In this document: in pieces, positions 1 through 13,440 of the stretch
Layout of the letters: every line of letters begins with the position of its first letter
Position numbering within the stretch: position 1 is the first letter of the stretch
Source: Prevotellaceae bacterium
GTDB lineage: Bacteria; Bacteroidota; Bacteroidia; Bacteroidales; Bacteroidaceae
Direction of reading: 5' to 3'
Assembly: GCA_021204545.1 (NCBI GenBank)
Contig: JAJPZF010000242.1
Span: forward strand, 1-13,440
DNA: 13,440 nucleotides
Translations under genes and position numbers: made by a program
The notes under the pieces: generated by a model
What the model saw: the letters and a program-made list of their open reading frames with translations, nothing else
Told to the model about the DNA's origin: nothing
Database searches by the model: none

Positions 1-54
1 GGGGTGTCCAGGCCCCCACCCGTGGGGGTGTCCAGGCCCCCACCCGTGGGGGTG
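1..54. repeat. 24-bp GC-rich tandem repeat with palindromic core
   Basis: About 2.25 copies of a 24-bp unit run in from the left edge, so the array is probably longer outside the window. Each unit contains the arms CCCCCAC and GTGGGGG separated by two bases (CC on the plus strand), a perfect 7-bp inverted repeat. The minus strand reads as Asp-Thr-Pro-Thr-Gly-Gly-Gly-Leu repeats in one frame. On that strand the unit matches, at about 20 of 24 positions, the repeat unit inside the giant gene at 9136-9375. It lies downstream of the terminase gene. Whether it is intergenic or part of a minus-strand gene extending left cannot be decided here. Confidence 0.85.
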
Positions 55-121
55 TCCGAAGCCTCGCCGCGCGCAAGAAAGCGGTGGTTATTTCCATTTT
101 GGGAACAGCCACTTGTGGTAT

Positions 122-138
122 GCGGGAGGAATGCCCGC
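122..138 (-). terminator. weak stem-loop just after terL (possible terminator)
   Basis: Arms GCGGG (122-126) and CCCGC (134-138) can pair around a 7-base loop, 3 bases past the terL stop on the minus strand. The stem is short and no T-run follows it, so termination is only a possibility. The rest of 55-141 shows no convincing gene. A short minus-strand frame with an ATG at 97 runs off the left edge through the 24-bp repeat. Confidence 0.2.
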
Positions 139-141
139 CTT

Positions 142-2256
142 TCAGATGGAAGCCTCGGAGAGGGAGTGTGTGATGGTGGCGAGGATGTCGCCGGGGCGGG
201 CTATGCGGGGCCGTGGCTGCTGGCGGTAGCACACATACAGTCCTATCGCCCGTGTCATCAGGATGTCGTCGTGGCAGCCCGGCGGGGCGGCATAGCCCCC
301 ACGGTCTGTAGTCTCGTAGGTGAGCAGCTCGGAGAGCATGCGCTCGTCACGCTCTATGTATCGGCTCTCCCTGACCGCCCAAACGAGGAAGTCCACCACC
401 TCGCCCTTGGTCTTGGCGTTGGTGTGGAAGCCGTACTTTCGGGGCAGTCCCTGCCTGATGTCCTCGGCGCTCTGCTGGCGGGCGTAGAGGTTGGGGTACG
501 CCTCGGCTATCATGGAGAGGACGAAGGGTGTGCTGTCCCTTATCTGCCGCGATATTCCCCCGGTCGTCTCGAGGGTGTTGCTCTCCACGACGAGCAGGGC
601 GTTGTTGTACCACGAGGCTATTTGCGCGGCTTTCCACGCCAGGAGATCCATGTCCGTCCTGCCCCTCCACTGGGCGACTATCTGCGGCCTGCCCTCGGGG
701 TCGTCCATCATCATGAGGCGGTCGAGGACGGCTATCACCGAGTAGTCCGCCTTGTCGGAGAGCCCCCTGCCCACGTCCGCCACGACGAGATAACGGTCGG
801 CTATCGGCTCTTGGGGGTCGTCCTGCTCCGGCTCCTCCCACACCTCCAGCGCCCCCGTCTCGTCGGGCGTGAAACGGATAGATCTGAGAGCCTGCTCCCC
901 GTCCTGCCTCTCGCCGTACAGCTCGCCCGTCAGCCCCGCGGGGCGGCACGTGGGGCGCAGCCGCTCCACACCGCTGAGGGAGAAGACCTGCCTGCCCGAG
1001 TGTGTGAACGCCTCCTCGGGGTCTGTGGGGTACTCGCTCGCCATGAACTCGTGCGAGGAACACTTCCTACGCTCCTCAACATACCAATTGACGCCCTCCA
1101 GCGTCGCCCCCTGCTCCCAGAGCCACCAGCGGTACTCCCCGCTGTCCTCGCGGCTGTTGCGCGCCTCGCGGCTGTTGCGCTCCCTGAGCAGCCTGTCGGC
1201 GAACTCCCGGGGGTCTTTCAGGGGCAGCGAGTACTGTTCTATCTCGTGCCACGAGACGAAGAACGGCTTGAACTGCGATGTCCCCGCCACGGCCGCGCAC
1301 CACTCGGAGTGGAAGAAGTTCGCCACGCCCTTGGCGGTGCTCTCGTAGACGATCATCGTCATCGGCTCGAGCAGCACGCCCGACGTGACAGCCTTGGCAA
1401 TCTCCTCGTCCGTCGTGCCGTCCTTTCCTTTCCACAGCCCCACCTCCGAGCCGTGGACGAGGGCGTAGTTCTCTCCCCTGACGCTGTTGGGGCTCTCCGC
1501 CGAGCCTATCTTCACGTAGCAGCCCCTTTGCGGTATGGTGTGCATCGAGTGGCTGCCCATCACGCTGTGGAACTTCACCTCGTCCGCCTTGAACGCCTCG
1601 CCCGGGGGGTGCAGCAGCCTGGTGGGGTAACGCTCCAGCATGCGCTGGTACTTGGCCTTGATGCCCGCGGCAATGTCCCCCACCTGCGCCACGATGATTG
1701 AGTTGAGCCCCCGCCTCTGCGTCAGCTGCAGCCACGCCATGTACATCTGCACGAGCGTCGAGCCGCCCCACTGGCGCGCCTTGAGGATCACAAGACGTAT
1801 AGGCTCGCCCCTCAGCCTCATCCCCTCAAGCGCGGCGACGAGCTTGCGCTGCGGGTGGTTGGGAGAGAGCGTCACGTCGGGACCCGGCTGCTTGTTCTGT
1901 ATGTAGGCGTATGCCGCCGCCCAGAAGGGGAAGTCGTGTCCCATGCGGACACGCTCGATGAGATCCCTTGTCTGCTCTGTGAAGAGCCGCGCCTCCTCCC
2001 CCGACTGGGGGCGGAGGTAGTCCTGCACGAACCTCCCTATCGATCCGTGCCTCTCCAGCTCCTGGAACAATGGGGTGTTGGCGGCGGCAAGCGGCACATG
2101 CTGCACCTCTATGTCGTAGTCGGGCAGCACCAGCGTGTGCCTCTCCAGCGGCTCTCCCTCGCCTGTTATCGGGTTGACGGGGGCGAGCAGCCTTGCCCGC
2201 CGCGCGGCGTTCTCCCGGAGCATCGCCTCCGTGTCATGGGGCGGGGCTTCCCTCAT
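142..2256 (-). CDS. terL: phage terminase large subunit
   Basis: 704 residues. The large terminase is the ATPase-nuclease motor that pumps phage DNA into the prohead and cuts the concatemer. The N-terminal ATPase is visible: a Walker A-like LKARQWGGST (158-167), a Walker B-like HGSEVGLW (268-275) with its acidic residue, and a coupling motif IVYESTAKG (302-310). The C-terminal RNase H-like nuclease has the expected three acidic sites: Asp494 in VVADVGRG, Glu558 in LVVESNT, and Asp663/Asp664 in CHDDILM. The length is normal for an intact two-domain TerL with some N-terminal extension. An Arg/Asn/Ser/Glu-rich patch (359-370) contains a short internal duplication. The ATG at 2256 starts 12 bases after the stop of the TerS-like gene, so the two are probably co-transcribed. 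The assignment is firm; the phage subfamily is not determined. Confidence 0.95.
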   Translation of the reverse strand: MREAPPHDTEAMLRENAARRARLLAPVNPITGEGEPLERHTLVLPDYDIEVQHVPLAAANTPLFQELERHGSIGRFVQDYLRPQSGEEARLFTEQTRDLIERVRMGHDFPFWAAAYAYIQNKQPGPDVTLSPNHPQRKLVAALEGMRLRGEPIRLVILKARQWGGSTLVQMYMAWLQLTQRRGLNSIIVAQVGDIAAGIKAKYQRMLERYPTRLLHPPGEAFKADEVKFHSVMGSHSMHTIPQRGCYVKIGSAESPNSVRGENYALVHGSEVGLWKGKDGTTDEEIAKAVTSGVLLEPMTMIVYESTAKGVANFFHSEWCAAVAGTSQFKPFFVSWHEIEQYSLPLKDPREFADRLLRERNSREARNSREDSGEYRWWLWEQGATLEGVNWYVEERRKCSSHEFMASEYPTDPEEAFTHSGRQVFSLSGVERLRPTCRPAGLTGELYGERQDGEQALRSIRFTPDETGALEVWEEPEQDDPQEPIADRYLVVADVGRGLSDKADYSVIAVLDRLMMMDDPEGRPQIVAQWRGRTDMDLLAWKAAQIASWYNNALLVVESNTLETTGGISRQIRDSTPFVLSMIAEAYPNLYARQQSAEDIRQGLPRKYGFHTNAKTKGEVVDFLVWAVRESRYIERDERMLSELLTYETTDRGGYAAPPGCHDDILMTRAIGLYVCYRQQPRPRIARPGDILATITHSLSEASI

Positions 2257-2268
2257 AAGGCGGGTGTG

Positions 2269-2691
2269 TCAGCTGTTCCTCACCATCTTGCGAACACCAC
2301 GCTCACGCCTCAATGCGCGGTAGGTGATCTCCTTGCAGGAGAGGGGCGTGAGGTAGAACTCGGGGGCGGGGGACTGGATGACCTTTCGCAGAGCGGTGTA
2401 GTAGTCCATGCCCTCACCCTCAAGCCTGACTGCCCTCCTCTGAATCTCCTGGTACATCTTAAGGCGCAGCAGCCGTATGCCCGCGGGGACTGTCCCCTTT
2501 GCGAGCTGTCGCATCATCTCGAGGGCGTGCCGGTAGGTGATCCAGAAGCGGGATGTGGGGTGGACGCACATCATTCTGAATATCTCCTCGTTGCGTTTCT
2601 CGGGGTGCTGCCGCCTCAAGGCGTGGTAGAGGGATGTCAGCTCGCTGTCGCGCCCATAGGTGATCTCTGAGTGTGTGCCTTTCTTGTTCAT
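2269..2691 (-). CDS. TerS-like small protein next to terL
   Basis: 140 residues, basic and mostly helical. I recognise the pattern (a SRFW motif followed by a 'PAPEFYLTP' motif near the C-terminus and an Arg-rich tail) from small proteins encoded just before terL in many Bacteroidales phages. From position and size it is the best candidate for the small terminase subunit, which would recognise the packaging site and present DNA to TerL. No classical helix-turn-helix is obvious by eye, so the function is inferred from context. I chose the ATG at 2691 (MNKKGTHSEI). It has an AAGAGA stretch just upstream and lies downstream of a good -7 promoter element. The longer frame would begin with TTG at 2721, upstream of that element. 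The stop is 12 bases before terL. Confidence 0.7.
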   Translation of the reverse strand: MNKKGTHSEITYGRDSELTSLYHALRRQHPEKRNEEIFRMMCVHPTSRFWITYRHALEMMRQLAKGTVPAGIRLLRLKMYQEIQRRAVRLEGEGMDYYTALRKVIQSPAPEFYLTPLSCKEITYRALRRERGVRKMVRNS

Positions 2692-2709
2692 ATCTCTTGG
2701 GTCATGCGG

Positions 2710-2717
2710 CGAAGTTA
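2710..2717 (-). promoter_or_regulatory. putative Bacteroidota -7 element for the terminase operon
   Basis: The minus strand reads TAACTTCG, one mismatch from the Bacteroidota -7 consensus TAnnTTTG. It would place transcription start about 10-15 bases before the ATG at 2691. No TTTG -33 element is seen at the expected spacing. The sequence GCTAACTTYGC is shared with the plus-strand element at 2825-2832, facing the other way. Confidence 0.35.
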
Positions 2718-2742
2718 GCAAAAATGCGGCAGACGCGGGCTT

Positions 2743-2770
2743 CCCCGCCCTCTGTGAGGGTCTTGCGGGG
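2743..2770. repeat. nested inverted repeat in the divergent intergenic region
   Basis: The outer arms CCCCGC (2743-2748) and GCGGGG (2765-2770) enclose the inner arms CCTC (2749-2752) and GAGG (2756-2759). The last bases touch the left arm of the longer inverted repeat at 2770-2818, so the two foldings may compete. It lies between the two putative promoters. Confidence 0.5.
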
Positions 2771-2818
2771 GCATCCCCTCGGCAAATAGTAAACGGATGG
2801 GGTAGCCGGGGGGATGCC
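2770..2818. repeat. 14-bp inverted repeat with 21-base spacer, possible operator or packaging site
   Basis: The left arm GGCATCCCCTCGGC (2770-2783) and right arm GCCGGGGGGATGCC (2805-2818) are complementary at 13 of 14 positions; the odd pair would be G-U in RNA. The right arm ends 6 bases before the plus-strand -7 element, where a -33 element would be expected. A DNA-level role fits this placement best: a repressor/activator site or a cos/pac-type packaging site beside the TerS-like gene. The role is inference; the repeat is directly visible. Confidence 0.6.
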
Positions 2819-2824
2819 GTGGGC

Positions 2825-2832
2825 TAACTTTG
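2825..2832 (+). promoter_or_regulatory. putative Bacteroidota -7 element for the virion operon
   Basis: TAACTTTG matches the Bacteroidota -7 consensus TAnnTTTG exactly. The start of transcription would fall near 2839, giving a leader of roughly 45 bases that is much richer in A and T than its surroundings. No TTTG -33 box is visible; that region is taken by the right arm of the inverted repeat, which suggests factor-dependent or repressible transcription. Confidence 0.45.
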
Positions 2833-2872
2833 CGCGCAATGTTATAGTTATTATCAGAAATCACAAATCAGA

Positions 2873-2878
2873 AAGGAG
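2873..2878 (+). promoter_or_regulatory. Shine-Dalgarno sequence AAGGAG
   Basis: AAGGAG lies 6 bases before the ATG at 2885. Clear Shine-Dalgarno sequences are uncommon in Bacteroidota genes, so it supports this start. Confidence 0.55.
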
Positions 2879-2884
2879 ACAGGA

Positions 2885-3436
2885 ATGGCAGGATTGGGGG
2901 ATATAGTGTCCGGCGCAGCGGGACTTGCAACTGGCATAGCGAACATCTTCACCCAGAGATCGCTTTCCCAATCGAGGAAGGACGATCTAAACAAAAGGAT
3001 TAGACAGAACCAGAACTGGTACAACCAGCGGTACAACGAGGACGCGACGCAGAGGGCCGACGCGCAGTCGATGATCACCAAGATGCAGGAGACGCTCAGG
3101 CAGCAGAACGCCGACGCGAAGGGCACGGCTGCCGTGATGGGCGGCACGGAGGAGAGCCAGGCGGCCACGAAGGCGGCGAACGCACAGGCCATAGCCGACA
3201 CCTCCAGCAATATCGTTCAGCAGGCGGACGCCCGCAAGGACTCTATCGAGCAGCAATATCTGGCGCAAAAGAACAGCTTACAGGACATGCAGGACCAGCT
3301 GAAGGCCGACCAGCAGCAGCAAATGGCCAGTGCGTTAAGTAATCTGGGTCAAAGCGTAGGCAAGGGTGCTGCCAGCTATGGCACTAATGGGGGGGGCGTG
3401 ACGAAGGCTGACATCATCAGCGCACTCAGGGAGTGA
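2885..3436 (+). CDS. small ejection-type virion protein
   Basis: 183 residues, Ala/Gln-rich and hydrophilic except for a Gly/Ala N-terminal segment (residues 2-23) that could form an amphipathic or weakly membrane-active helix. The rest is predicted by eye to be long helices (about 25-155). The conserved-looking elements NWYNQRYNEDATQRADAQ (44-61), AAVMGGTEESQAATKAAN (82-99) and the RKDSIEQQYLAQK segment match a family I remember from Bacteroidales phages. Such proteins sit just before the giant virion-associated protein and resemble T7 gp14-like internal/ejection proteins. It is the first gene of the plus-strand operon, behind a good -7 element and an AAGGAG. The virion role is inferred from family memory, composition and neighbours; a scaffold or minor tail role is an alternative. 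Confidence 0.75.
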   Translation: MAGLGDIVSGAAGLATGIANIFTQRSLSQSRKDDLNKRIRQNQNWYNQRYNEDATQRADAQSMITKMQETLRQQNADAKGTAAVMGGTEESQAATKAANAQAIADTSSNIVQQADARKDSIEQQYLAQKNSLQDMQDQLKADQQQQMASALSNLGQSVGKGAASYGTNGGGVTKADIISALRE

Positions 3437-3467
3437 GTTAGGAACATTATAACCAAAGACAAGGAAG

Positions 3468-4769
3468 ATGGCAAAACCGGAATACAACCCTACAGAGGAT
3501 GACTGGAAGCGGGCGCAGGCCGCGTCCGCGGCACAGCAACAGCAACAGCAATCAGCTGGGCAGCCCGAGGAAGGGCAAGGATACCCCCAGCAAGAACACC
3601 CTTACTACACCGAGAGCCACAATGCCGGCGGCGGCGCGCAGCAGCGGATTGAGAGGATCGTCACTTCTATGCCGAGGTCGGTCTTCCAGCCCTATATGAG
3701 TGTCAAGGGATGGGAGACGCAGGTGCAGGACAACATGAGGCACAAGTACGATCCCGTTCCCAAGGGCTGGACACCAGCGATGGGCGGCAGCGCTATAGGT
3801 AACGGCGGAGGCGGAAGCTCCTCAAGATACTACTACAAGTTCACACCCCCCGAGGAGCGCCACGACAACGAGGACGAGTTCCGCAAGGAGAACCCCGAGA
3901 CGAAGGAGCCCTCAGAGGAGGAGCTGGAGGCGGCAAGGAAGAAGGAGCGGCGGGATAAGAGACTCGCAAACGCCAAGAGCATAATGGACACTCTGAGCCG
4001 CGTCGCCAACTACGTCGCCACAACGCAGGGAGCTCCCAGCGCCAAGTGGGGGCTGACCGCAGCCCCAAAGCCGAAGTCTTACCTCGGTGAGATGTGGGAC
4101 AAATACAACAAGGAACACAAGGACTGGCTGGACAATCTGGAGAAGATGAAGGAACTCGACATGAAGGCCAACAATGGGCGCTACAGCAACGCCTTCAAGG
4201 AGTGGTTGGAAGACTTGAACCAGAGAAGGCAGGCGGGTGACCAGGCAGGAAAGGACGCGAAAAACAAAGCCGATGTGGACTACACCAACGCCCAGACTAA
4301 CAAGACTAATACGTTGACGCCGCTCGAAGTGAAAAGCGAGGAAGCCCTGGCCCAGCAGCGCAGAGCCTCCGCATACCAGAGCTACACCAGCGGCAAAGCG
4401 AACGACAAAGAGTACTACCGCATCAACGAGAACGGAGAAGAGGAAAGATACAAGGCGGACAAACAGAACGAGTGGGAGAACAAGACCCGCAGTGACGCAA
4501 GGCAGCTGCATATCCCCGACACGTACAACGAGACATCAACCACCAGCAAAACCGACAAGCGTGGCAACTCCGACGGGAGTTCGACCACAACGAAGAGTAA
4601 GCAAAGAACGGCGATTGAGCTGGCCTCCGCGGCAGCGCGTGTCCGCAATTGGAACAAGAAAAAGCACAAGGAAGACCCCGACTGGGACATCAACACCCCC
4701 GCAGATGCGCCAGAAGGCTTTCTTAGTAGCGAAGAGAGCCTGTTCGGCGGCGATGACCTGAACATTTAG
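3468..4769 (+). CDS. hydrophilic phage protein, probable internal virion component
   Basis: 433 residues with no transmembrane segment. The N-terminal part (about 1-120) is low-complexity and includes a six-Gln run and a Gly/Ser stretch. The middle (about 145-250) is a charged helical region containing the element SRVANYVATTQGAPSAKW, followed by WDKYNKEHKDWLDNLEKMKELD. I recognise this pattern (a 'TTQGAP' loop in a helical pair) from unnamed proteins lying between the small ejection-type protein and the giant protein in Bacteroidales phages. The C-terminal 130 residues are Lys/Thr/Asn-rich and look disordered. AAGGAAG lies just before the ATG; the gene starts 31 bases after the previous stop and ends 23 bases before the giant gene, so one operon is likely. 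Function is unknown; a gp15-like internal protein role is inference from order and size. Confidence 0.8.
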   Translation: MAKPEYNPTEDDWKRAQAASAAQQQQQQSAGQPEEGQGYPQQEHPYYTESHNAGGGAQQRIERIVTSMPRSVFQPYMSVKGWETQVQDNMRHKYDPVPKGWTPAMGGSAIGNGGGGSSSRYYYKFTPPEERHDNEDEFRKENPETKEPSEEELEAARKKERRDKRLANAKSIMDTLSRVANYVATTQGAPSAKWGLTAAPKPKSYLGEMWDKYNKEHKDWLDNLEKMKELDMKANNGRYSNAFKEWLEDLNQRRQAGDQAGKDAKNKADVDYTNAQTNKTNTLTPLEVKSEEALAQQRRASAYQSYTSGKANDKEYYRINENGEEERYKADKQNEWENKTRSDARQLHIPDTYNETSTTSKTDKRGNSDGSSTTTKSKQRTAIELASAAARVRNWNKKKHKEDPDWDINTPADAPEGFLSSEESLFGGDDLNI

Positions 4770-4792
4770 AAAACACAAAGAAAGCTGAGGCA

Positions 4793-7700
4793 ATGGCAAA
4801 CGAAAAGGACACGGAGAGGAAGGACGACAAATACTCGGAGCTGCACACCCAGCTGCTCAGGATCGGCTACAACGAGGGGCAGTTAGGCGACAAGGCACAG
4901 TTCCGGGAGAGAATGCAATCTGACCAAAAGAGGAAGAACCTCTATAACTCCGTGAACAGGAGGGGCGACTGGAGTAAACTGGGGATCAGCTCGTACACTG
5001 ATTACGAGACACGCTATGCCCCCGAGAGCCCGACGCAACGGAAGGTGCGCCAAATCAAGGAGAACAAGCAGGCTCTGGATGACAACGACACCTCCTCCCC
5101 CACCCCGTCCTCGCAGTCAAAGCCAAAGCCAAAGCCACAGCAGCAAAAGCCCGCCCCCGGCAGCGTCGCCCCCGACGGGGGTGACAACAAGGGATGGTGG
5201 GGAAGAGTCGTCGACTATATGACCAGGCCCTCGACGGGAGAGGGCAGCTGGTACACCAAGGAGGGAGTGGAGAGAGCGAGGGCGAGGGATCAGCGGAAGA
5301 GGGAAGACATCGCGCTGAACCAGGCGGTGGGGAGCACGCTCGGCGAGGGAATGCGCAAAGGGTGGTCTAAGGAGCGGGCTGCGCTGGCAAGGGAGATGAA
5401 GGACAAGCTCTCGCCTGAGGATTACGAGAAATGGCTGAACGATTACACCCACCGTGAGGAGAAGGACTTCCTGGAAAACAGGGGCACATACACGAGTTTC
5501 CCCGATGCCTACGCAGGAACGCTTGCAAACTCCATGGAGAGGGAAAGGATAGACGGCGCGCCCGTTACCGGCGGCACTCCCGTCGACCGGGAGAAAGCGG
5601 AGCGGACAATGAGGGAACTCGGCGAAGGATATGGCCAAACCGAGAACGCCCTCGAGGAAAACAGGAAGAGGAGGGAGAGGACGCTGTCCGTCATCAACGA
5701 CCCACACAAGATGGCGGCTATTGTCTCCCGCCAGAAAGAGATCGGCACAGACCCCCTGACCGGCAATGCGGCGTGGGTGTATACCCTGCCCGACGGGGAG
5801 GTGACGGCGGACAAGTCCCAGTACGATAAGGAGTGGCGGGCGGTCGACGACGCGTTCTCCAAGAAGCCTGTGTACGACCAGGCGAGCGATGAGATCAAGT
5901 CCATCGACAAGAAGGCGGGCGAGCGGCAGAAGGCCTTGGACGAGCAGTTCGAGCAGACCGTGAGGAATAACCCCATGGCGGCCTACGGGATGATGATGTC
6001 GACAGGCGGGGACAGGTACAGGCAGGACACCAACCTCACAATGTACGGGTACGCCCGCCGCCACGCCGAGAACTCGAAGCGGATGGTTGAGGAGGCGGGC
6101 AAGAACAACTCCGACAACTGGTGGCAGAGCAACTTCATGAGCGGGGCGGGACGGGGCTTCTGGGACGCTGTCAAGGACCCCCGCACGTGGGACTTCGGCG
6201 TGGGCGACGCTGACGAGGCGCTGTACATGCTCAGGATAAAGGACAAGTTCGAGAAGGGGGAGAAGCTGACGGACTCGGAGCAGGCCCTGGCGGATGCGGT
6301 CGCCCTCGATGTCGCCACGCAGGCTATGTACAGCCCCCTCATAGGCAGGGGCTACCGGGCGGGCATGGTGACGGGCGAGAGCCTTCCCTTCATGATAGAG
6401 ATGATGATCAACCCGATGTCGGGCGCTTCGGAGGAGGGCTCGGCCGCCTTCGCGAGATGGATAACGAGGAAGTACGGGCAGCGCATACTGGAGGCGGTGG
6501 GCAGACGCTGGGAGCGGGCTCTCGTGAAAGGGGCGGCGTTCAGCGCCAGGCAGGGGCTTGGCGCTCTGTACTCCCTCGGCATGGAGGCGACGACGGGAGC
6601 GCCGAGGACTGCCTCCATCATCCTCAACCGCCACATGGGCGACGTGGACTACACGGGTGGTGAGGCGAGGGCAGTGACCGACCGCGACGGGGAGCGCGTG
6701 GAGATGACCCCCGTCAGCTTCGGCGGCTTCAAGAATGGCGAGAGCTGGGGCGAGGCCGTGTACAAGGGCCTGGCGCAGCAGAACATAGAGTACTACTCCG
6801 AGATGCTGGGCGAGGAGTTCGCCCCGCTGCTCGGCCTGCTGGGCAAGGGCGCGGGAAAGGGTCTCAACAAGATGGGGCTTGGGAACGTCACGAGAACCAT
6901 AGAGAGGATAGGCAGTACGGACTTCGCCAAAGGGGCGGGCAAGTTCCTCAAGCGGACGCAGTGGCACGGCACACTGGGCGAGTACATGGAGGAGGTGTCG
7001 GGCAACATGATGAACGCCCTGCTGGTGGGCGACAACACGTGGGACGCAGCGCCTGGCACGGGTGTCTTCAACCCGAGCGACAACGTGGACACGTTCCTCG
7101 GAGTGGGCCTGTTCGGCGGCTTCACGTCCGCCGTCAACACCGGGGCGTACGGCGTGGAGAGGTTCAAGCTCGGCAGGCGGATAGAGGACAGCGACATGGA
7201 CGCGCTCACCCTCTTCCAGTCCGCCGACGGCCAGCAGAAGCAGCTGTGGGACAACTATGTCAAGACACTAAGGACAGGCAGCCCCGAGACGATAAGGAAA
7301 GCCGTGGAGACGATGCTGGGCGACCGGAACATCTCCCTCACACAGCGCAGGCACATGCTCGAGCGCGCCAACCTCGAGATGCAGGCCAGGGGAGGCGACG
7401 AGACAAGGAAGCGGCTCAACCAGCTGTACGGCAACGCCGTCAGCGAGACGCAGGACATGATGGAGAAGGAGTACGCCGCCGGCTCAAGGCTCGTGACGGG
7501 GGCGGCGGGGCAGGAGGGACAGCCGGCGACAGGGCAGCCCGACAGGGAGGGCATACAGAAGGCGTACGACACGATGTATTACTCGATGGCGCGGCTGCGC
7601 GCCGTCTGGGGGCAGGAACTGCTCGACAGGCTCGACCGCGACCCGCTGACAACGATGGCGGAGCTCTCCGCCACGGGGGACGAGAGCCGGCTCGACCTCG

Positions 7701-10700
7701 CGAAGAGCTATGTCGGGGCGCGCCAGCGCTTGGAGGGCATCATGCAGGAGTACCGGAACAGGAGCGACAAGGCGAGGAAGGGCATAGCCGAGGATCTCGA
7801 GAGCAGGACGCACAGGAACAGCAAGGGCAGGCCCGACGGCACGATACAGCACGCCACTCTCAAGAGCGGCGAGAAGGTGGACATCGTGGACGAGCGCAAG
7901 TCCTCGAAGGGCTTGGTCTTCGTGGTCGGCGAGGACGGCAGGACGCGCTCCGTGGCGAGCGGCGACATAGCGAGCCGTGACGGGGAGGAGGACAAGAAGG
8001 CGCTCAGGGAGAGCCGGGAGAAGGAGTCGGATGACAGTCTGGCGGGCGAGTTTGCCGGCATGGCCGGGGGCTTCGGGGAGATAACGCTTGGCGCACAGTA
8101 CGAGATACCCCTGAAGGAGGGAGACGGTAACATGGCGGTCACCCTCACCGCCCGCTCGGGCGAGCAGGACGGGGAGAGGGAGCGGCTCACGCTCACCCTT
8201 CCCGACGGCACCGGGATGCAGACCACCCGGGCCGGGCTGCTTGATGCCGTGGGCGAGGCCCGCATGAGGCACGTGGCAAGGAGCGCGGAGGCCGAGGGCG
8301 GCCGCCTCGAGGACTCCTACAACCGTGAGCGCCTGAGGCGGATAAGGAAGCACGGGCGCGGCTCAGGCGGCTACAAGGTGGGGCAAAAGCTGAGGCTCAG
8401 CGACGGCGAGGGCGGCGTGACGGATGTCGAGGTCATGAGGGTGGACAGCCACAAGGGCATGGTGCGGGTGTGGGCTCCAGGCAAGCCCCTGAGCGGGTAT
8501 GCCGTGAAGGATCTCACCCTCGAGGAGCTGCGCCGCCTCACCGTCGGCAAGGACGATAGGCAGAAGAAGACATACGCCGGCTTGTACAAGGAGGGCGAGA
8601 CGATATACACCCGGGAGGGCGAGGCCGTGATAAGCTCCATCGACATGGGCGAGAGAGGTGTCCCACTGTTCACGCTGGAGTACGGCAGCGGCAGGCGGGT
8701 GACCTACGTCGGGGAGAGTACCCTGATGAAAGCTGTCGACACCCTGATGGGGCAGACAGTGAGCGTTGACGGCAGGATATACACCGTGGAGAGCCGTCAG
8801 GGCGAGGGGGACAGCCTCGTATACACCCTGCGGGACAATGTGGGCAACAGCATACAGATGCAGGCCGACGAGCTTGGCGGCATCGTGGACGAACAGGAGC
8901 AGGCGGAGCAGGAGCTCACCAACGGCAAGCGGCTGAGGCTGAGGCTGGAGGACGGCAGCGAGGCGGAGGGCGAGATAAGCGCCGTGGAGAACGGGGAGTA
9001 CACCGTCTCCCTGCTCGACAAGGACGGCAACATCACGGGCAGCCGGCGCTTCGGCCGCCTCGCCGAGCTGCTGGGCAGCCTCGTGGCCGTGGAGGACACG
9101 GGCGGAAAGCCCGTTGAGGCCACTACGCAGGCTCCGGAGACCCCCACAAACGGGAGCGGGGAGACCCCCACGAGTGGGGGTGTGGAGACCCCCACGAGTG
9201 GGAGTGTGGAGACCCCCACGAGTGGGAGTGTGGAGACCCCCACGAGTGGGAGTGTGGAGACCCCCACGAGTGGGGGTGTGGAGACCCCCACGAGTGGGAG
9301 TGTGGAGACCCCCACGAGTGGGAGTGTGGAGACCCCCACGAGTGGGAGTGTGGAGACCCCCACGAGTGGGGGTGTGCAAGCCCCAGCCCTTGCCCCAGCT
9401 CCTAAGCCTAAGCTGACGCTCGACGACAAGGGCAATCCCGTGTACGAGGAGAGCCCCGCGGAGGCCACGCTCGACGACATAATAAAGAAGGCGGGGGGCA
9501 ATATGAAGAACGTCGAAGCCGTCATCGCCGCGAAGCGGAAGAGCTGGGAGAAGAAGGCGGGAAAGGCGAAGAAGGCTCTCGAGAAGGCGCGCAAGGGCGG
9601 CGACCTGGGGGAAGGCACGGTGGACGAGATGCTCGCCCGCCTCGACAAGATGGGAAATGAGGCACAGGAGGCAGAGAGAAACGCGGCCTACTGGAAGGCG
9701 GTCGGGGACGAGATAACAAGGCGGGAGAACGAGCGCAAGGCACAGGAGGAGCAGGCAAGGCGGCAGGCGGAAGAGCAGGCGGACAGGCGGCAGGCGGAGC
9801 AGCAGGAGCTGGCGGACGCGCCCGAATACATTACTGACAACCCGCTGAAGGCGAGGCTGAGGGGCTGGATAAAGGTGGCGGGGCGGAAGGTCATGCGCAG
9901 GGGGCCGCTCAAGGGCAAGAAGGGCAACGCCGTCGAGGTGGCGTTCAAGCTCTCGCCCGTCGGGGGCGTAGTGGCCGGTGGCAACGTCATGCTCGTTGAG
10001 GCAAGCGACCTCGTGCCGAGCATAACGACGAACGACCAGTACAACCCGCTGCACCTGTTCCTCGAGGAGAGCCAGCCCAAGGGAAGGGAGGGCGACCTGG
10101 GCAGCTCCCTCTCCAAGAGGATGATAGCGGAGAGCGTCAAGCCCGGCTTGATAGTGACGCAGGGCGAGTTCGGGACTGCCTTCACCGGCTCTCCCGTCGT
10201 GAACGCCCGCGGGGAGGTGATACAGGGCAACAACCGCGCCTCCGGCCTGCAGCTGATGTACGAGAAGCACCCCGCCGAGGCGGCGAAGTACAAGAAGTAC
10301 CTCATCGGCCATGCTAAGGAGCTGGGCTTGAGGGCGGAGGACATAGAGGGGATGCAGTGTCCCGTCGTCGTGAACATGGTGGACGCGAGCGACGAGAAGG
10401 CGATAGAGTACGGCAACTACAAGGCCGCGGACACGGAGAGCGGCGGCGCAGAGGGGATGAACCCCAAGACGGAGGGCGCGAAGCTGAGCTCCAAGGGGCT
10501 GTTCGGGACGTTCGCCCGCATGCTCACCGAGGGCAGCGAGGACGACACGCTCTCCACTCTCGTCCAGAACAACGCCGAGAGCGTCCTGAGGTGGATGGCG
10601 GAGAAGGGCATCATAACCCTCACGCAGCTGAGGACAGCCTACGACGACATGGCGGACGCGCGCGCCTCCCTGCAGAGGATACTCCAGGACGCAGCCTACA

Positions 10701-13440
10701 AGGGCATGGGCGAGAAGATGCGCAAGGTGTTCGACAGCCTGCCCGACAAGATCACCTCCGCCATAAAGATGACGGCGTGGAGGGACACGGGGACCAAGCG
10801 CCCCGGAGACAGGATGCAGCCCGAGGTGCGCAAGGCCCTGGAGCTGTACAGCCGCCTCAGGGAGGAGCTGGAGGCTGTCAAGGGCGACCCCCTGAGGGTG
10901 GAGAACATCCTCAGGGACTTCGCCCGCCAGTACGACATGGAGACGGGCAAGACGGGATCACAGCTCTACAGCCCCTTCGCCATGAGGCTCACCGAGCTGT
11001 TCGCCACCAAGAACAGGAACTACATCCGCGACGTCTTCGACGAGATGTACGACTGGATGCAGGGCAACCAGAGCGGGCAGACGAGCCTGCTCGACGACCC
11101 CCGCAAGGGAAAGATGACCTTGGCGGAGGCCGTGAGGGAGGTGCTGGACGTGGACTACAACCCCGAGGAGTGGACCGACACGGGGAAAGTGACTAAATTG
11201 GGCAAGGACAACAACCAAACAGACAACGACAATGGACAAACGGGAACTGGTCTTCTGGCTGGCGACAATAAGGCTGGCCAAAAAGGGAAGCAAGGAGGCG
11301 AGGGAGGATCTCAGGAGGGAGGAGGAGAGAAGAAGAGCGGAGGGACTGCCGACGCTCAGCGAGGAGATGACGAGGGCGGCCGAGGGGATGTAGGCGGGAA
11401 GAAGGAGACCGCAAGTGAAACCCCGTCGGAAGAGCCGAAGCCCATAGGCAAGGGCCCGTTCGGAGACATATACGACCAGTTCAAGGGCAAGGCGAAGGAG
11501 GCGATAGACTTCCTCCTAAGCCACAAGAGCGGCGACTTGCTGGGAGTGTTCCACCGTGACGAGATAGGTGACATAGACCTTGTGTGGGGAGACAGAAACG
11601 GAGGTCTGTGTCATATACTGGAGAAACACATAAAGGAGCTTCACGACTTTAAGGACACTGGCGAGCTTGCGGCGGTGATGTCTGGCATTGTTGAGAGTGG
11701 TGATATTATCACTGACGGCAAAAGCTCGTACAGAATAAGAAAGGGAAACTACATTCTCGTCATCCGGAAAGATTATGATGGCGAGAAAAAGAATTGGGTG
11801 GTCACCTCTTTTGACAAGAGCCGCAGTGTAAAAGGAAAAAGGAATGCCACCAATCCCACGTCCGCCCCTCATGGTGCGAGTGAAGAGGGGAAGACTGCCT
11901 CTTCAAGCACTCCTTCTGGGCGCAAAGGTACGGAGAAGGGAAACACCACGCAAGAGAAGGGCGGGGAAAACGAGGGGGAGAGCAGACAGACGGAGAGTAA
12001 GCCTGCGATACCGCCAGTTCCTTCGCGGGAATACCCCACAGGCTGGGACTACTTCAAGAGTGCGAAAGACGGGGGCGGAATCACCGCCCGGGACAACGAG
12101 GAGAGCATTTATCCGAACGGGCAGAGGAAGTACGAGAAAAAGGAAGAAGGCTATAATAACATTGTGGAGACGTGGTATCGTCAGGACGGGAGCCGGGTGG
12201 CCACGCTGGTAGATAATGGGAAATATGGCACCGTCTTCCAGGTTTACTACGAGAACGGCAGTACGCGCGAGAAAATATCAAAGGGTGCGGACGGGCTTGT
12301 AAAATCTATTGAAAAATACGACGAGAAAGGGCAGTACGTCTATGTGTATAATCACTTCGTTTCATCTCATCGTGAGGACTTCTATCAGAAAGGCGTTATT
12401 TCCCACTCAATACTGATTGAAGAAGACTTGAGGAAGGCGGTAGAAGATGGAGCTTTTGTGGAGACGTGGTTCTATCCGCTGAATGGGAATATGTCGTTTC
12501 CGCGTAGAAAGGAGAAGATCTTCCTCGGGCCGGACGGCTCAGGCTATCACCGTTGGTACGACGATAAGGAGAGAATTGTGCGGGCAATATACTACAACCC
12601 CGACGGCTCGTGGGAAGAAGTGGAGTACGACGCGTCGGGCAGGGAGCACATTACAAGGCAAGGGCAGGGCGGCAAGCCTGCGAAGGGTGAGGCAGCCACT
12701 GGGAACAAGGAGAGCAAAGGGGAGAAAAAAACTGTGGCGGGCGAGGCGAAGGGAGGAAGCGGCGCGCCAGCCGTGAGCCAGGTTAACATCGAGAGCCTCG
12801 TGGGCGCGCTCAGGCAGAACGGGGAGGCAAAGCTCTCGGACCATTCCAGCCCATTGACGCAGGAGGGGGCGGCAGAAAAAAAGGGCGGCAACTCCACAGC
12901 CGGGAAAGAGGAAGGAAAGAAAGAGGAGAAGAACGAGGGCTTGCTGGGACTCGTCTCCGACGCACGCATGGAGGAGCTTAAGGAGCGGCTCAGGCAAAAG
13001 CTCTTCGGGCAGGCGAACATGGGTTTCGACCCCGAGCTACTCTTGATAGGCATGGAGCTTGCGGCGGGGCACATAGACAGGGGTGTCAAGTCCTTCACGG
13101 ACTTCTGCCGCAAGATGATAGCGGACCTGGGCGACGCTGTGCGCCCGTACCTGAAAGCCTTCTACGAGGGCGCGAGGTATATGCCCGGGATGGATAATTA
13201 CAGGAAGGACATGACCCCCACGGAGGAAGTGAACACCACAGACGTGGGCAAAATCACGGGCGGGGAGGAGAAAAAAACCGCCGAGAGTGGAGGGGAAAGA
13301 GGAAAAGGCGTAACTTCGCCGCCGAAGTCGAACCAAACCGAAAAAGGAGGAGAGAATGGACTACAGGGAATTCATGTCACACGCGCCGGAGGACTGCAAG
13401 CCGACAGTGGTGGACAACAAGAGGGACTACGAGCTGGCGA
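4793..13440 (+). CDS. giant multidomain polyvalent protein (3' end outside window)
   Basis: One uninterrupted frame of at least 2,882 residues; I checked the frame at many points and saw no stop or frameshift. Order: charged N-terminus with a Lys/Pro/Gln linker (about 96-135); charged helices; a helical module with hydrophobic patches (507-788); helices ending in YVGARQRLEGIMQ; about six SH3/KOW-like repeats (1020-1433); ETPTSG(G/S)V repeats (1449-1528); a coiled coil (about 1563-1673); a ddrB-type ParB domain (1682-2125); a PBECR nuclease domain (2220-2342); MORN-like repeats (2437-2623); and a C-terminal polyvalent module (2717-2813). Gly/Lys/Glu linkers separate the last domains. In known polyvalent proteins such domains are delivered with incoming phage or conjugative DNA to protect it and disarm the host. 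The position after two virion-type genes suggests packaging in the capsid. Third-position GC bias leaves this frame at 13356, so the true C-terminus may be close to the window end. Confidence 0.9.
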   Translation, partial: MANEKDTERKDDKYSELHTQLLRIGYNEGQLGDKAQFRERMQSDQKRKNLYNSVNRRGDWSKLGISSYTDYETRYAPESPTQRKVRQIKENKQALDDNDTSSPTPSSQSKPKPKPQQQKPAPGSVAPDGGDNKGWWGRVVDYMTRPSTGEGSWYTKEGVERARARDQRKREDIALNQAVGSTLGEGMRKGWSKERAALAREMKDKLSPEDYEKWLNDYTHREEKDFLENRGTYTSFPDAYAGTLANSMERERIDGAPVTGGTPVDREKAERTMRELGEGYGQTENALEENRKRRERTLSVINDPHKMAAIVSRQKEIGTDPLTGNAAWVYTLPDGEVTADKSQYDKEWRAVDDAFSKKPVYDQASDEIKSIDKKAGERQKALDEQFEQTVRNNPMAAYGMMMSTGGDRYRQDTNLTMYGYARRHAENSKRMVEEAGKNNSDNWWQSNFMSGAGRGFWDAVKDPRTWDFGVGDADEALYMLRIKDKFEKGEKLTDSEQALADAVALDVATQAMYSPLIGRGYRAGMVTGESLPFMIEMMINPMSGASEEGSAAFARWITRKYGQRILEAVGRRWERALVKGAAFSARQGLGALYSLGMEATTGAPRTASIILNRHMGDVDYTGGEARAVTDRDGERVEMTPVSFGGFKNGESWGEAVYKGLAQQNIEYYSEMLGEEFAPLLGLLGKGAGKGLNKMGLGNVTRTIERIGSTDFAKGAGKFLKRTQWHGTLGEYMEEVSGNMMNALLVGDNTWDAAPGTGVFNPSDNVDTFLGVGLFGGFTSAVNTGAYGVERFKLGRRIEDSDMDALTLFQSADGQQKQLWDNYVKTLRTGSPETIRKAVETMLGDRNISLTQRRHMLERANLEMQARGGDETRKRLNQLYGNAVSETQDMMEKEYAAGSRLVTGAAGQEGQPATGQPDREGIQKAYDTMYYSMARLRAVWGQELLDRLDRDPLTTMAELSATGDESRLDLAKSYVGARQRLEGIMQEYRNRSDKARKGIAEDLESRTHRNSKGRPDGTIQHATLKSGEKVDIVDERKSSKGLVFVVGEDGRTRSVASGDIASRDGEEDKKALRESREKESDDSLAGEFAGMAGGFGEITLGAQYEIPLKEGDGNMAVTLTARSGEQDGERERLTLTLPDGTGMQTTRAGLLDAVGEARMRHVARSAEAEGGRLEDSYNRERLRRIRKHGRGSGGYKVGQKLRLSDGEGGVTDVEVMRVDSHKGMVRVWAPGKPLSGYAVKDLTLEELRRLTVGKDDRQKKTYAGLYKEGETIYTREGEAVISSIDMGERGVPLFTLEYGSGRRVTYVGESTLMKAVDTLMGQTVSVDGRIYTVESRQGEGDSLVYTLRDNVGNSIQMQADELGGIVDEQEQAEQELTNGKRLRLRLEDGSEAEGEISAVENGEYTVSLLDKDGNITGSRRFGRLAELLGSLVAVEDTGGKPVEATTQAPETPTNGSGETPTSGGVETPTSGSVETPTSGSVETPTSGSVETPTSGGVETPTSGSVETPTSGSVETPTSGSVETPTSGGVQAPALAPAPKPKLTLDDKGNPVYEESPAEATLDDIIKKAGGNMKNVEAVIAAKRKSWEKKAGKAKKALEKARKGGDLGEGTVDEMLARLDKMGNEAQEAERNAAYWKAVGDEITRRENERKAQEEQARRQAEEQADRRQAEQQELADAPEYITDNPLKARLRGWIKVAGRKVMRRGPLKGKKGNAVEVAFKLSPVGGVVAGGNVMLVEASDLVPSITTNDQYNPLHLFLEESQPKGREGDLGSSLSKRMIAESVKPGLIVTQGEFGTAFTGSPVVNARGEVIQGNNRASGLQLMYEKHPAEAAKYKKYLIGHAKELGLRAEDIEGMQCPVVVNMVDASDEKAIEYGNYKAADTESGGAEGMNPKTEGAKLSSKGLFGTFARMLTEGSEDDTLSTLVQNNAESVLRWMAEKGIITLTQLRTAYDDMADARASLQRILQDAAYKGMGEKMRKVFDSLPDKITSAIKMTAWRDTGTKRPGDRMQPEVRKALELYSRLREELEAVKGDPLRVENILRDFARQYDMETGKTGSQLYSPFAMRLTELFATKNRNYIRDVFDEMYDWMQGNQSGQTSLLDDPRKGKMTLAEAVREVLDVDYNPEEWTDTGKVTKLGKDNNQTDNDNGQTGTGLLAGDNKAGQKGKQGGEGGSQEGGGEKKSGGTADAQRGDDEGGRGDVGGKKETASETPSEEPKPIGKGPFGDIYDQFKGKAKEAIDFLLSHKSGDLLGVFHRDEIGDIDLVWGDRNGGLCHILEKHIKELHDFKDTGELAAVMSGIVESGDIITDGKSSYRIRKGNYILVIRKDYDGEKKNWVVTSFDKSRSVKGKRNATNPTSAPHGASEEGKTASSSTPSGRKGTEKGNTTQEKGGENEGESRQTESKPAIPPVPSREYPTGWDYFKSAKDGGGITARDNEESIYPNGQRKYEKKEEGYNNIVETWYRQDGSRVATLVDNGKYGTVFQVYYENGSTREKISKGADGLVKSIEKYDEKGQYVYVYNHFVSSHREDFYQKGVISHSILIEEDLRKAVEDGAFVETWFYPLNGNMSFPRRKEKIFLGPDGSGYHRWYDDKERIVRAIYYNPDGSWEEVEYDASGREHITRQGQGGKPAKGEAATGNKESKGEKKTVAGEAKGGSGAPAVSQVNIESLVGALRQNGEAKLSDHSSPLTQEGAAEKKGGNSTAGKEEGKKEEKNEGLLGLVSDARMEELKERLRQKLFGQANMGFDPELLLIGMELAAGHIDRGVKSFTDFCRKMIADLGDAVRPYLKAFYEGARYMPGMDNYRKDMTPTEEVNTTDVGKITGGEEKKTAESGGERGKGVTSPPKSNQTEKGGENGLQGIHVTRAGGLQADSGGQQEGLRAG
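6311..7156 (+). other. helical module with hydrophobic patches in the giant protein
   Basis: Residues 507-788. Hydrophobic stretches such as AGMVTGESLPFMIEMMI, ARQGLGALYSLGM, EFAPLLGLLGKGAGKG and DTFLGVGLFGGFTSAV alternate with charged segments. The sequence NALLVGDNTWD..PGTGVFNPSDNVDTFLGV matches my memory of a recurrent block in giant Bacteroidales phage proteins. A role in membrane contact during DNA ejection is plausible but inferred; no motif proves it. Confidence 0.5.
7850..9091 (+). other. array of about six beta-rich SH3/KOW-like repeats
   Basis: Residues 1020-1433. Segments of roughly 45-60 residues begin near 1020, 1096, 1194, 1262, 1316 and 1376. Each follows the pattern of a glycine turn, a short beta pair with alternating valines, an acidic-Gly turn, and a closing strand (for example VGQKLRLSDGEGGVTDVEV and NGKRLRLRLEDGSEAEGEI). 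This resembles SH3-like barrels. The repeats have diverged beyond easy alignment by eye, so the fold is an inference. Confidence 0.5.
9136..9375 (+). repeat. in-frame 24-bp tandem repeat (10 units) coding ETPTSG(G/S)V
   Basis: Ten contiguous 24-bp units lie inside the giant gene (residues 1449-1528). The first is degenerate (ETPTNGSG). The next nine follow the order A B B B A B B B A, where A units end in Gly-Val and B units in Ser-Val, differing by one base (GGGGG versus GGGAG). A units contain perfect 8-bp arms ACCCCCAC/GTGGGGGT around GA. The order points to duplication of a four-unit, 96-bp block. The peptide is a Thr/Pro/Ser/Gly spacer between the SH3-like array and the coiled coil. The unit is related to the repeat at 1-54. 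Confidence 0.97.
9836..11167 (+). other. ddrB-type ParB superfamily domain of the giant protein
   Basis: Residues 1682-2125. The diagnostic segment is GSPVVNARGEVIQGNNRASG (1799-1818), which matches the 'pPvVdarG.VieGNgR' signature of the ddrB-like ParB domain named after P1 DdrB, with Gly1812-Asn-Asn-Arg1815 as the core. A preceding Arg/Lys-rich strand region and a following helical region up to LDVDYNPEEW (end about 2127) complete the long form of this domain. P1 DdrB belongs to the Dar antirestriction system, so a DNA-associated, recipient-side role is likely. Biochemical activity here is unproven. Confidence 0.8.
11232..11393 (+). CDS. nested 53-residue ORF inside the giant gene (candidate)
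   Basis: ATG at 11232 to TAG at 11391-11393, in the +1 frame relative to the giant gene. It begins MDKRELVFWLATIRL, continues as a charged, helix-forming Arg/Glu/Lys segment, and ends TRAAEGM. An in-frame TGA (11190-11192) lies upstream, and the A-rich leader between is typical of Bacteroidota genes; no Shine-Dalgarno is seen. By hand count third-position GC is about 79% (42 of 53 codons) in this frame but only about 46% in the giant frame over the same bases; the giant frame regains its bias straight after the TAG. In the giant frame the segment is a Gly/Lys/Gln linker. It could be a real overlapping gene or the remnant of a gene swallowed when two genes fused. Its function is unknown. Confidence 0.5.
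   Translation: MDKRELVFWLATIRLAKKGSKEAREDLRREEERRRAEGLPTLSEEMTRAAEGM
11450..11818 (+). other. PBECR-type (barnase/colicin E5/RelE-like) nuclease domain
   Basis: Residues 2220-2342. The pattern GDIDLVWGDRNGGLCHILEKHI with His2274 and His2279 is the hallmark of the phage Barnase-EndoU-ColicinE5/D-RelE-like nuclease domains. It is followed by a short helical insert and a beta hairpin SSYRIRKGNYILVIRKD...NWVVTSFDK, which closes the fold as in other family members. Such domains occur as toxins at the ends of, or inside, polyvalent proteins. Target RNA or DNA is not predictable from sequence alone. Confidence 0.8.
12101..12661 (+). other. MORN/YwqK-like repeat region
   Basis: Residues 2437-2623. 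The aromatic-Asn/Asp-Gly pattern recurs: YPNGQRKYEKK, YRQDGSRVATLVDNG, YYENGSTREKISKG, LGPDGSGYHRWYDDK and YYNPDGSWEEVEYDASG. This matches MORN_2-type repeats found in YwqK-family proteins, which are annotated as antitoxins of toxin systems. It directly follows the nuclease domain. The repeat assignment is moderate; an antitoxin role is inference. Confidence 0.55.
12941..13231 (+). other. C-terminal Bacteroidales polyvalent module
   Basis: Residues 2717-2813, starting LLGLVSDARMEELKERLRQK and containing FGQANMGFDPELLLIGMELA and MIADLGDAVRPYLKAFYEGA. I recognise this from memory as a block that recurs in large Bacteroidales phage and conjugative-element proteins, usually beginning 'LV(S/T)D.R...L..R.R.KLGGQ.NMGIDPE'. 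It is helical and soluble. Its biochemical role is not known to me. Confidence 0.7.
13345..13350 (+). promoter_or_regulatory. perfect Shine-Dalgarno AGGAGG
   Basis: AGGAGG lies 5 bases before the ATG at 13356, the strongest ribosome-binding sequence seen in the window. It supports a new gene start inside the open frame of the giant protein. Confidence 0.6.
13356..13440 (+). CDS. start of the next gene, overlapping the giant frame (partial)
   Basis: Only the first 28 residues are in the window: MDYREFMSHAPEDCKPTVV followed by DNKRDYELA. An in-frame TAA (13311-13313) lies upstream and AGGAGG sits 5 bases before the ATG. Third-position GC is about 89% (25 of 28) in this frame against about 32% (9 of 28) in the giant frame over the same bases, where the giant frame reads as a Gly/Gln-rich string. 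The selected coding frame therefore switches here, and the giant protein probably ends soon after, overlapping this gene. The start resembles that of the nested ORF at 11232 (MD.RE, and 13 of 16 bases alike around the ATG). I do not recognise the product. Confidence 0.65.
   Translation, partial: MDYREFMSHAPEDCKPTVVDNKRDYELA

Follow-up and report, generated by a model that had tools for sequence, protein, structure and literature searches.

Does a short open reading frame (ORF) that lies out of frame inside a giant gene encode a protein of its own, and, if it does, which of the two overlapping frames is the older? The question is raised by contig JAJPZF010000242.1 of a Prevotellaceae bacterium, one of the 292 contigs of an incomplete genome. 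All 13,440 bases of this contig were analysed and are called the window here. An initial annotation had proposed a small ATG-to-TAG ORF in another frame of the giant gene, and such an ORF is present:

4793 to 13438, plus strand: ORF of the giant polyvalent protein (the host gene), 2882 amino acids seen, open at the contig end
11232 to 11393, plus strand: nested gene 1, 53 amino acids, ATG to TAG, wholly inside the giant ORF and in its +1 frame
11231 to 11396, plus strand: linker between domains in the host frame, overprinted by nested gene 1

On sequence evidence, it is very probable that nested gene 1 is genuine and translated, a small gene set in the +1 frame within an interdomain linker of a giant polyvalent-protein gene. 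We infer its translation from selection; the conservation of its start and the adenines typical of initiation are indirect signs of it.

Third-position GC in the overlap is 79.6% in the nested frame (54 codons, stop counted) and 47.2% in the host frame (53 codons); the host frame has 87.6% from 4793 to 11192. When the giant gene was scanned with 2829 sliding windows of 162 nucleotides, a swap of at least 0.25 between the frames was seen at two places only, 11216-11243 and 13265-13277, each peaking at 0.315, and the second of these turned out to be another nested gene (see below). The size of the swap reported initially, and its centring on the ORF, are therefore borne out, but its description as beginning and ending exactly at the ATG and TAG is not, as a sliding window cannot show such limits. 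Synonymous recoding of the host codons produced a +1 ORF of at least 53 codons beginning with ATG at this place in 30.5% of cases, and in 94% when the whole gene was considered, so nested gene 1 is not significant by openness alone. Its conservation over 21 distinct DNA cores, unlike its openness, is significant, judging from the comparisons that follow.

A tblastn search of 50,697 phage records with the nested product gave one weak match, to BKO1-TP3 (locus L002; E=2, 47.8% over 46 residues). The matching segment lies in the +1 frame of a 16.7-kb coding sequence annotated as 'DarB-like', has its own ATG and TAG, and encodes a product 42% identical to that of the window. Searches starting from BKO1-TP3 led to BS-TP4, ten viral contigs, ten bacterial genome contigs and three further genomes; the bacterial contigs are labelled Bacteroides, Phocaeicola, Butyricimonas, Prevotella, Muribaculaceae, other Bacteroidales and, for one metagenome-assembled genome, Bacillota. 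With the window included, nested gene 1 was hit 26 times at 25 distinct places (L047 is the same place as L029), always starting with ATG, in the +1 frame and at the same place in giant genes. For analysis, 24 hits were retained (L009 and L010 have the same core as L008), and these represent 21 distinct cores. In all 21 the ATG is present and the small frame is fully contained in the host gene, on the same strand and in another frame, with both frames open, which is what defines a nested overlapping gene. Matches are rare: in the family of the window, 5 of 399 genomes had one (the decayed copy L050 among them), and in its order 2 of 295. A profile made from 20 nested peptides without the window recovers the nested frame of the window at E=8e-15; with a profile made from the host-frame peptides of the same DNA, the host frame of the window is absent among the matches listed, which extend to E=5.3. 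The worry of the initial annotation that the 53-residue product might have no homologue anywhere is thus removed, since homologues occur in Bacteroidales phages and metagenome-assembled genomes.

The length of the product varies. Nested gene 1 reaches 129 codons in L007 (4381-4770), L008 and L030, where a protein-like nested tail lies over a linker-like host frame, and its products have 66-87 residues in L006, L011, L027, L028, L031 and L049.

Selection acts differently on the two frames. Over the 21 distinct cores, differences at nested positions 1, 2 and 3 amount to 0.217, 0.162 and 0.318, with most at the third and fewest at the second, nested second positions being host third positions; pairs with the window only show a weaker contrast (0.376, 0.377 and 0.510). 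In a subset of 16 sequences, the rates at host positions 1, 2 and 3 go from 0.163/0.096/0.410 upstream to 0.259/0.168/0.125 inside the nested gene. An overlapping-gene count gives a nested dNN/dNS of 0.23 (bootstrap confidence interval 0.12-0.39) and a host dNN/dSN of 0.89 (0.59-1.46), i.e. purifying selection on the nested frame exceeds that owed to the host frame. Over the 43 host codons directly upstream the situation is reversed, with 0.10 (0.05-0.17) for the host and 0.88 (0.38-2.2) for the +1 frame; this control used 16 of the 21 cores, because the upstream sequence of the window, L023, L027, L038 and L049 differs. A scan of the 16.7-kb gene of BKO1-TP3 against 13 relatives, blind to the position of this ORF, finds the minimum third-position share, 0.17 against a median of 0.57, at nested gene 1 (788 windows of 40 codons with enough aligned sequence, coverage being thin in the last part). 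The comparison of constraint that the initial annotation had called for thus comes out in favour of the nested frame, and the pattern that it had named as fatal, frequent nested-frame stops over a conserved linker, is not seen: stops occur in 0 of 21 over the aligned core, and host residues are nearly neutral. Under random synonymous coding of the nested peptide, the host frame would be open with a probability of 0.001-0.129 in 20 of the 21 cores, and it is open in all 21; together with the low nested dNN/dNS, this indicates that nested residues and host-frame openness are both maintained.

Bacteroidetes do without Shine-Dalgarno sequences, and in Flavobacterium initiation is favoured by A at -3, -6, -12 and -13 and by weak folding (PMC6847099, in the portions retrieved). 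The corresponding region of nested gene 1 is:

11202 to 11231, plus strand: putative translation initiation region of nested gene 1, A-rich and weakly folded, with A at -3, -6 and -13 and not at -12

All 21 nested starts have A at -3 and -13, and 20 have it at -12. The background values at -3, -13, -12 and -6 are 36%, 28%, 37% and 31%, as estimated from 4260 other ATGs of the same frame and loci (loci present in both lists, for nested genes 1 and 2, count twice). A at -3, -12 and -13 jointly is found at 20 of 21 starts of nested gene 1 and 14 of 16 starts of nested gene 2, versus 5.1% in the background. In each of seven loci tested, the nested-1 start folds more weakly than 83-100% of other out-of-frame ATGs, and in six of these loci no other out-of-frame ATG equals it in upstream AT-richness.

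The other place of frame swap in the window holds a second gene of this kind, truncated by the end of the contig:

13356 to 13439, plus strand: nested gene 2 in the +1 frame, with the 28 codons that precede the end of the contig
13326 to 13355, plus strand: putative translation initiation region of nested gene 2, from the start-signal comparison

Nested gene 2 is unrelated to nested gene 1. The 28 residues seen in the window match ORFs in five loci, and alignment-based searches added more, giving 17 distinct loci, in 16 of which (window counted) the gene is nested in the +1 frame, and in one of which (L058) it stands alone; L051, L053 and L061 were removed as duplicates of L004, of L006 and of part of L055, respectively, and L063-L067, L069, L070 and L072 as the same contigs again. 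L060, from the window's genus, has a 63-residue copy whose first 28 residues are identical to those of the window. The nested dNN/dNS is 0.31 (0.18-0.46) and the host dNN/dSN 1.26 (0.96-1.71) in a set of 12 sequences, which leaves out the duplicates, the standalone L058, the window with its 28 codons and the later-found L068, L071 and L073. The ATG is kept in 16 of 16, a count that includes the last three and the window and leaves out L058 and the duplicates. In scans with three other giant genes as reference, the minimum third-position share falls at nested gene 2. An AAGGAGG stretch, unusual for Bacteroidetes, lies 5' of the nested-2 start in the window and in L060, and may be merely host codons. 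In phage L006 the giant gene is found in two overlapping open frames, 2-7259 with nested gene 1 inside and 7102-10126 with nested gene 2 inside.

The second slot does not always hold the same gene. L004 and BKO1-TP3 align at 82-87% on both flanks of slot 2; the alignment ends at L004 position 7558, in codon 2 of nested gene 2, whose ATG is at 7554, and restarts at 7742, near the stop. In BKO1-TP3 the slot (13182-13445) is filled by an unrelated +1 ORF of 87 codons, which is also found in Bacteroides congonensis (L026, position 6548). Searches for further relatives of this ORF gave none besides these two, and a length of 87 codons has a chance probability of P=0.20, so its standing as a nested gene is suggestive only. 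In BS-TP4 (L012) and L029, slot 2 has no nested gene, and the host frame runs on with different sequence. In all, two slots are supported, one after the ddrB-ParB part and one before the N6-methylase part, and three nested families, the third of which (L002/L026) is suggested by position, frame and the clean alignment break.

Several observations weigh against regarding nested gene 1 as a translated gene, or lessen the force of the tests. Two annotated phage records have no entry for the small gene, and family and fold searches with the nested product gave no match that indicates a function. In L050 (minus strand), a relic of nested gene 1 has lost its N-terminal half and acquired a stop with the host frame still open, a natural loss which shows that the gene is dispensable in some giants. 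The window itself is one of the less telling cases: its probability of an open host frame is 0.27, it is the sole nested-1 start without A at -12, and 7 of its 34 other out-of-frame ATGs match the nested start in upstream AT-richness. Over all nested-1 starts, A at -6 is found in just 57%. Finally, the loci are related and the codon bootstrap disregards phylogeny, and the SS sites are saturated, which leaves two of the four ratios usable.

What the product might do can be approached through its predicted structure and its neighbours. The initial annotation saw in it a folded or helical protein, and AlphaFold2 agrees, predicting three helices with a mean pLDDT of 93.2. Two identities were rejected. 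Weak TPR_6 matches occur in 3 of 11 members (best E 0.002), with scores of 13.3 bits for the first member and 17.6 for L027, under the Pfam cut-off of 26.3; the 53-residue product has no cysteine, which excludes an Rz1-type outer-membrane spanin as defined by a lipoprotein signal with a cysteine. In the host protein of the window, the following domains all exceed their Pfam cut-offs within one polypeptide:

6785 to 7171, plus strand: LPD14 domain of the giant protein (Pfam, E 5.4e-15)
9989 to 10378, plus strand: ddrB-ParB domain of the giant protein (Pfam, E 8.1e-17)
11549 to 11827, plus strand: PBECR1 nuclease-like domain of the giant protein, 3' of nested gene 1 (Pfam, E 9e-18)

Together, they mark the host as belonging to the class of polyvalent proteins treated in the retrieved parts of PMC5512222. 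The ddrB-ParB domain is the closest Pfam domain upstream of nested gene 1, ending about 284 codons 5' of its ATG in the window; the same domain is closest in 12 of 12 loci tested (the window, L002 and ten more), at a distance of about 265-285 codons. The ddrB-ParB domain is thus the constant neighbour. Our tentative guess is that the nested product may assist the giant protein as a small accessory partner, perhaps by working with the ddrB-ParB part. The host protein of the window also contains a Thr/Pro/Ser-rich repeat encoded by a 24-bp tandem array of 10 copies (9136-9376); another 24-bp repeat with a different unit occupies the first bases of the contig (1-57), perhaps being the reason for the assembly break there.

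The nested product could instead be a dedicated antitoxin or immunity protein for a toxin-like module downstream, given that nested gene 1 is followed by PBECR1 in the window, by PBECR2 at five loci and by MuF_C at three, and that the nested C-terminal tails differ between loci in length and sequence. This we consider improbable, as the nested core is unchanged whether the first downstream domain is PBECR1, PBECR2, MuF_C, InPase (in L002, L022, L023, L024, L028 and L038) or N6_Mtase (in L007).

Frameshifting occurs in phages. As the nested codons lie in the +1 frame of the giant ORF, a programmed +1 frameshift downstream of the ddrB-ParB part might carry some ribosomes into them and produce a truncated giant protein tailed by the nested peptide. 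A frameshift needs no ATG, yet the ATG is kept at every start counted for both nested genes, and the last nested-frame stop lies just 6-24 nucleotides before it in 20 of 21 cores (median 12; 39 nucleotides in the window); this proximity of the stop to a kept ATG argues against frameshifting, as do adenines at the spacing published for initiation (PMC6847099, same portions). Relatives of nested gene 1 that stand alone begin with Met at about the same place. We regard this mechanism as very unlikely.

These standalone relatives bear on the origin of the overlap. L034 (10101-10277) and L045, from two genomes that share a genus within the order of the window, contain small genes detected by the profile at E 4e-11 and 6e-11, homologous to nested gene 1 but not located inside a giant gene. 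Upstream of the L034 gene there is a 62-residue ORF, which from the look of its sequence we presume to be PspC-like. With such relatives, and with the decayed copy in L050, one might think of nested gene 1 as a fossil, i.e. a captured gene now out of use, whose traces of selection predate the fusion. However, dNN/dNS is 0.21 among the closest pairs (less than 20% divergence), all of which are already in giant genes, and a fossil has, in our estimate, very little chance of being the answer. The initial annotation had offered two alternatives, translation from within the giant gene and capture of an intergenic gene that a fusion happened to leave open; the former is strongly supported by the sequence evidence, the latter is supported as the likely origin, and, as standalone relatives exist, both are probably true of one object.

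A composition artefact, i.e. a chance +1 ORF in a GC-rich and G/K-rich linker, would fit the abundance of open +1 ORFs of this length in these genes, and is hardly credible in view of the homologous product in other giants (42% identical in BKO1-TP3), the profile match at E=8e-15 and the selection test. Conservation of a non-coding element, such as a regulatory RNA or a packaging or recombination site, would suit the coincidence of the nested-2 boundary with the L004-L002 alignment break, and is scarcely to be believed when variation in both nested genes concentrates at nested third positions and the nested-1 core changes in length only by a single complete codon (in L011 and L028).

If nested gene 1 is translated, as we think, ribosomes would start internally at the nested ATG on the mRNA of the giant gene, independently of a Shine-Dalgarno sequence, and a separate three-helix protein would be made besides the giant protein. 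Of the two overlapping elements, we infer the small gene to be the older, with the linker of the giant protein overlaid on it, probably at the fusion of neighbouring genes: a small gene that followed the one for the ddrB-ParB part and preceded the next would have been kept through the fusion, the fused frame crossing it as a linker. No unfused version of the giant gene turned up that would show the fusion directly. The usual account of overprinting would thereby be inverted, in that age and constraint seem to belong to the small frame, and the linker of the large protein looks like a disposable newcomer; this suggests a route by which operons fuse into giant genes yet keep the intervening small genes. 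More broadly, the giant polyvalent genes of Bacteroidales phages may be fused operons whose interdomain linkers double as +1 small genes, with exchange slots where recombination swaps these from start to stop, the giant frame staying open and each phage carrying its own set, a picture to which we give somewhat less than an even chance. Annotation easily overlooks small genes that lie inside giant phage genes, nested gene 1 being missing from both deposited phage records, and the codon-position test is applicable to other giant phage genes.

How does this arrangement compare with known systems? In the open-licence literature searched, no account of polyvalent-protein genes with other genes nested inside them was found, and in PMC5512222 the word 'overlapping' is not used and 'nested' is used twice, both times of a hairpin fold, with no out-of-frame internal genes in the passages returned. 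Polyvalent proteins are found in phages and conjugative elements (PMC5512222, same passages); the window's host shares LPD14, ddrB-ParB and PBECR1 with them, and its giant-gene relatives add InPase, PBECR2, MuF_C, RadC and N6_Mtase. What appears to be new here is that the linkers of a giant gene overprint conserved small genes, and that they do so at two slots, of which one is apparently exchangeable. Nested phage genes as such are familiar, Rz1 within Rz of lambda being one. Gene E within gene D of phiX174 is another (PMC8227390, in the part retrieved). In these pairs, too, a full gene lies inside another, on the same strand and in a different frame, with both frames open. Unlike either pair, the present case has as its host a very large gene for a multidomain protein, of which the window shows 8.6 kb and which reaches 16.7 kb in BKO1-TP3; here the overlap falls in a linker with nearly neutral residues, the nested gene has standalone relatives, and one host gene offers two slots.

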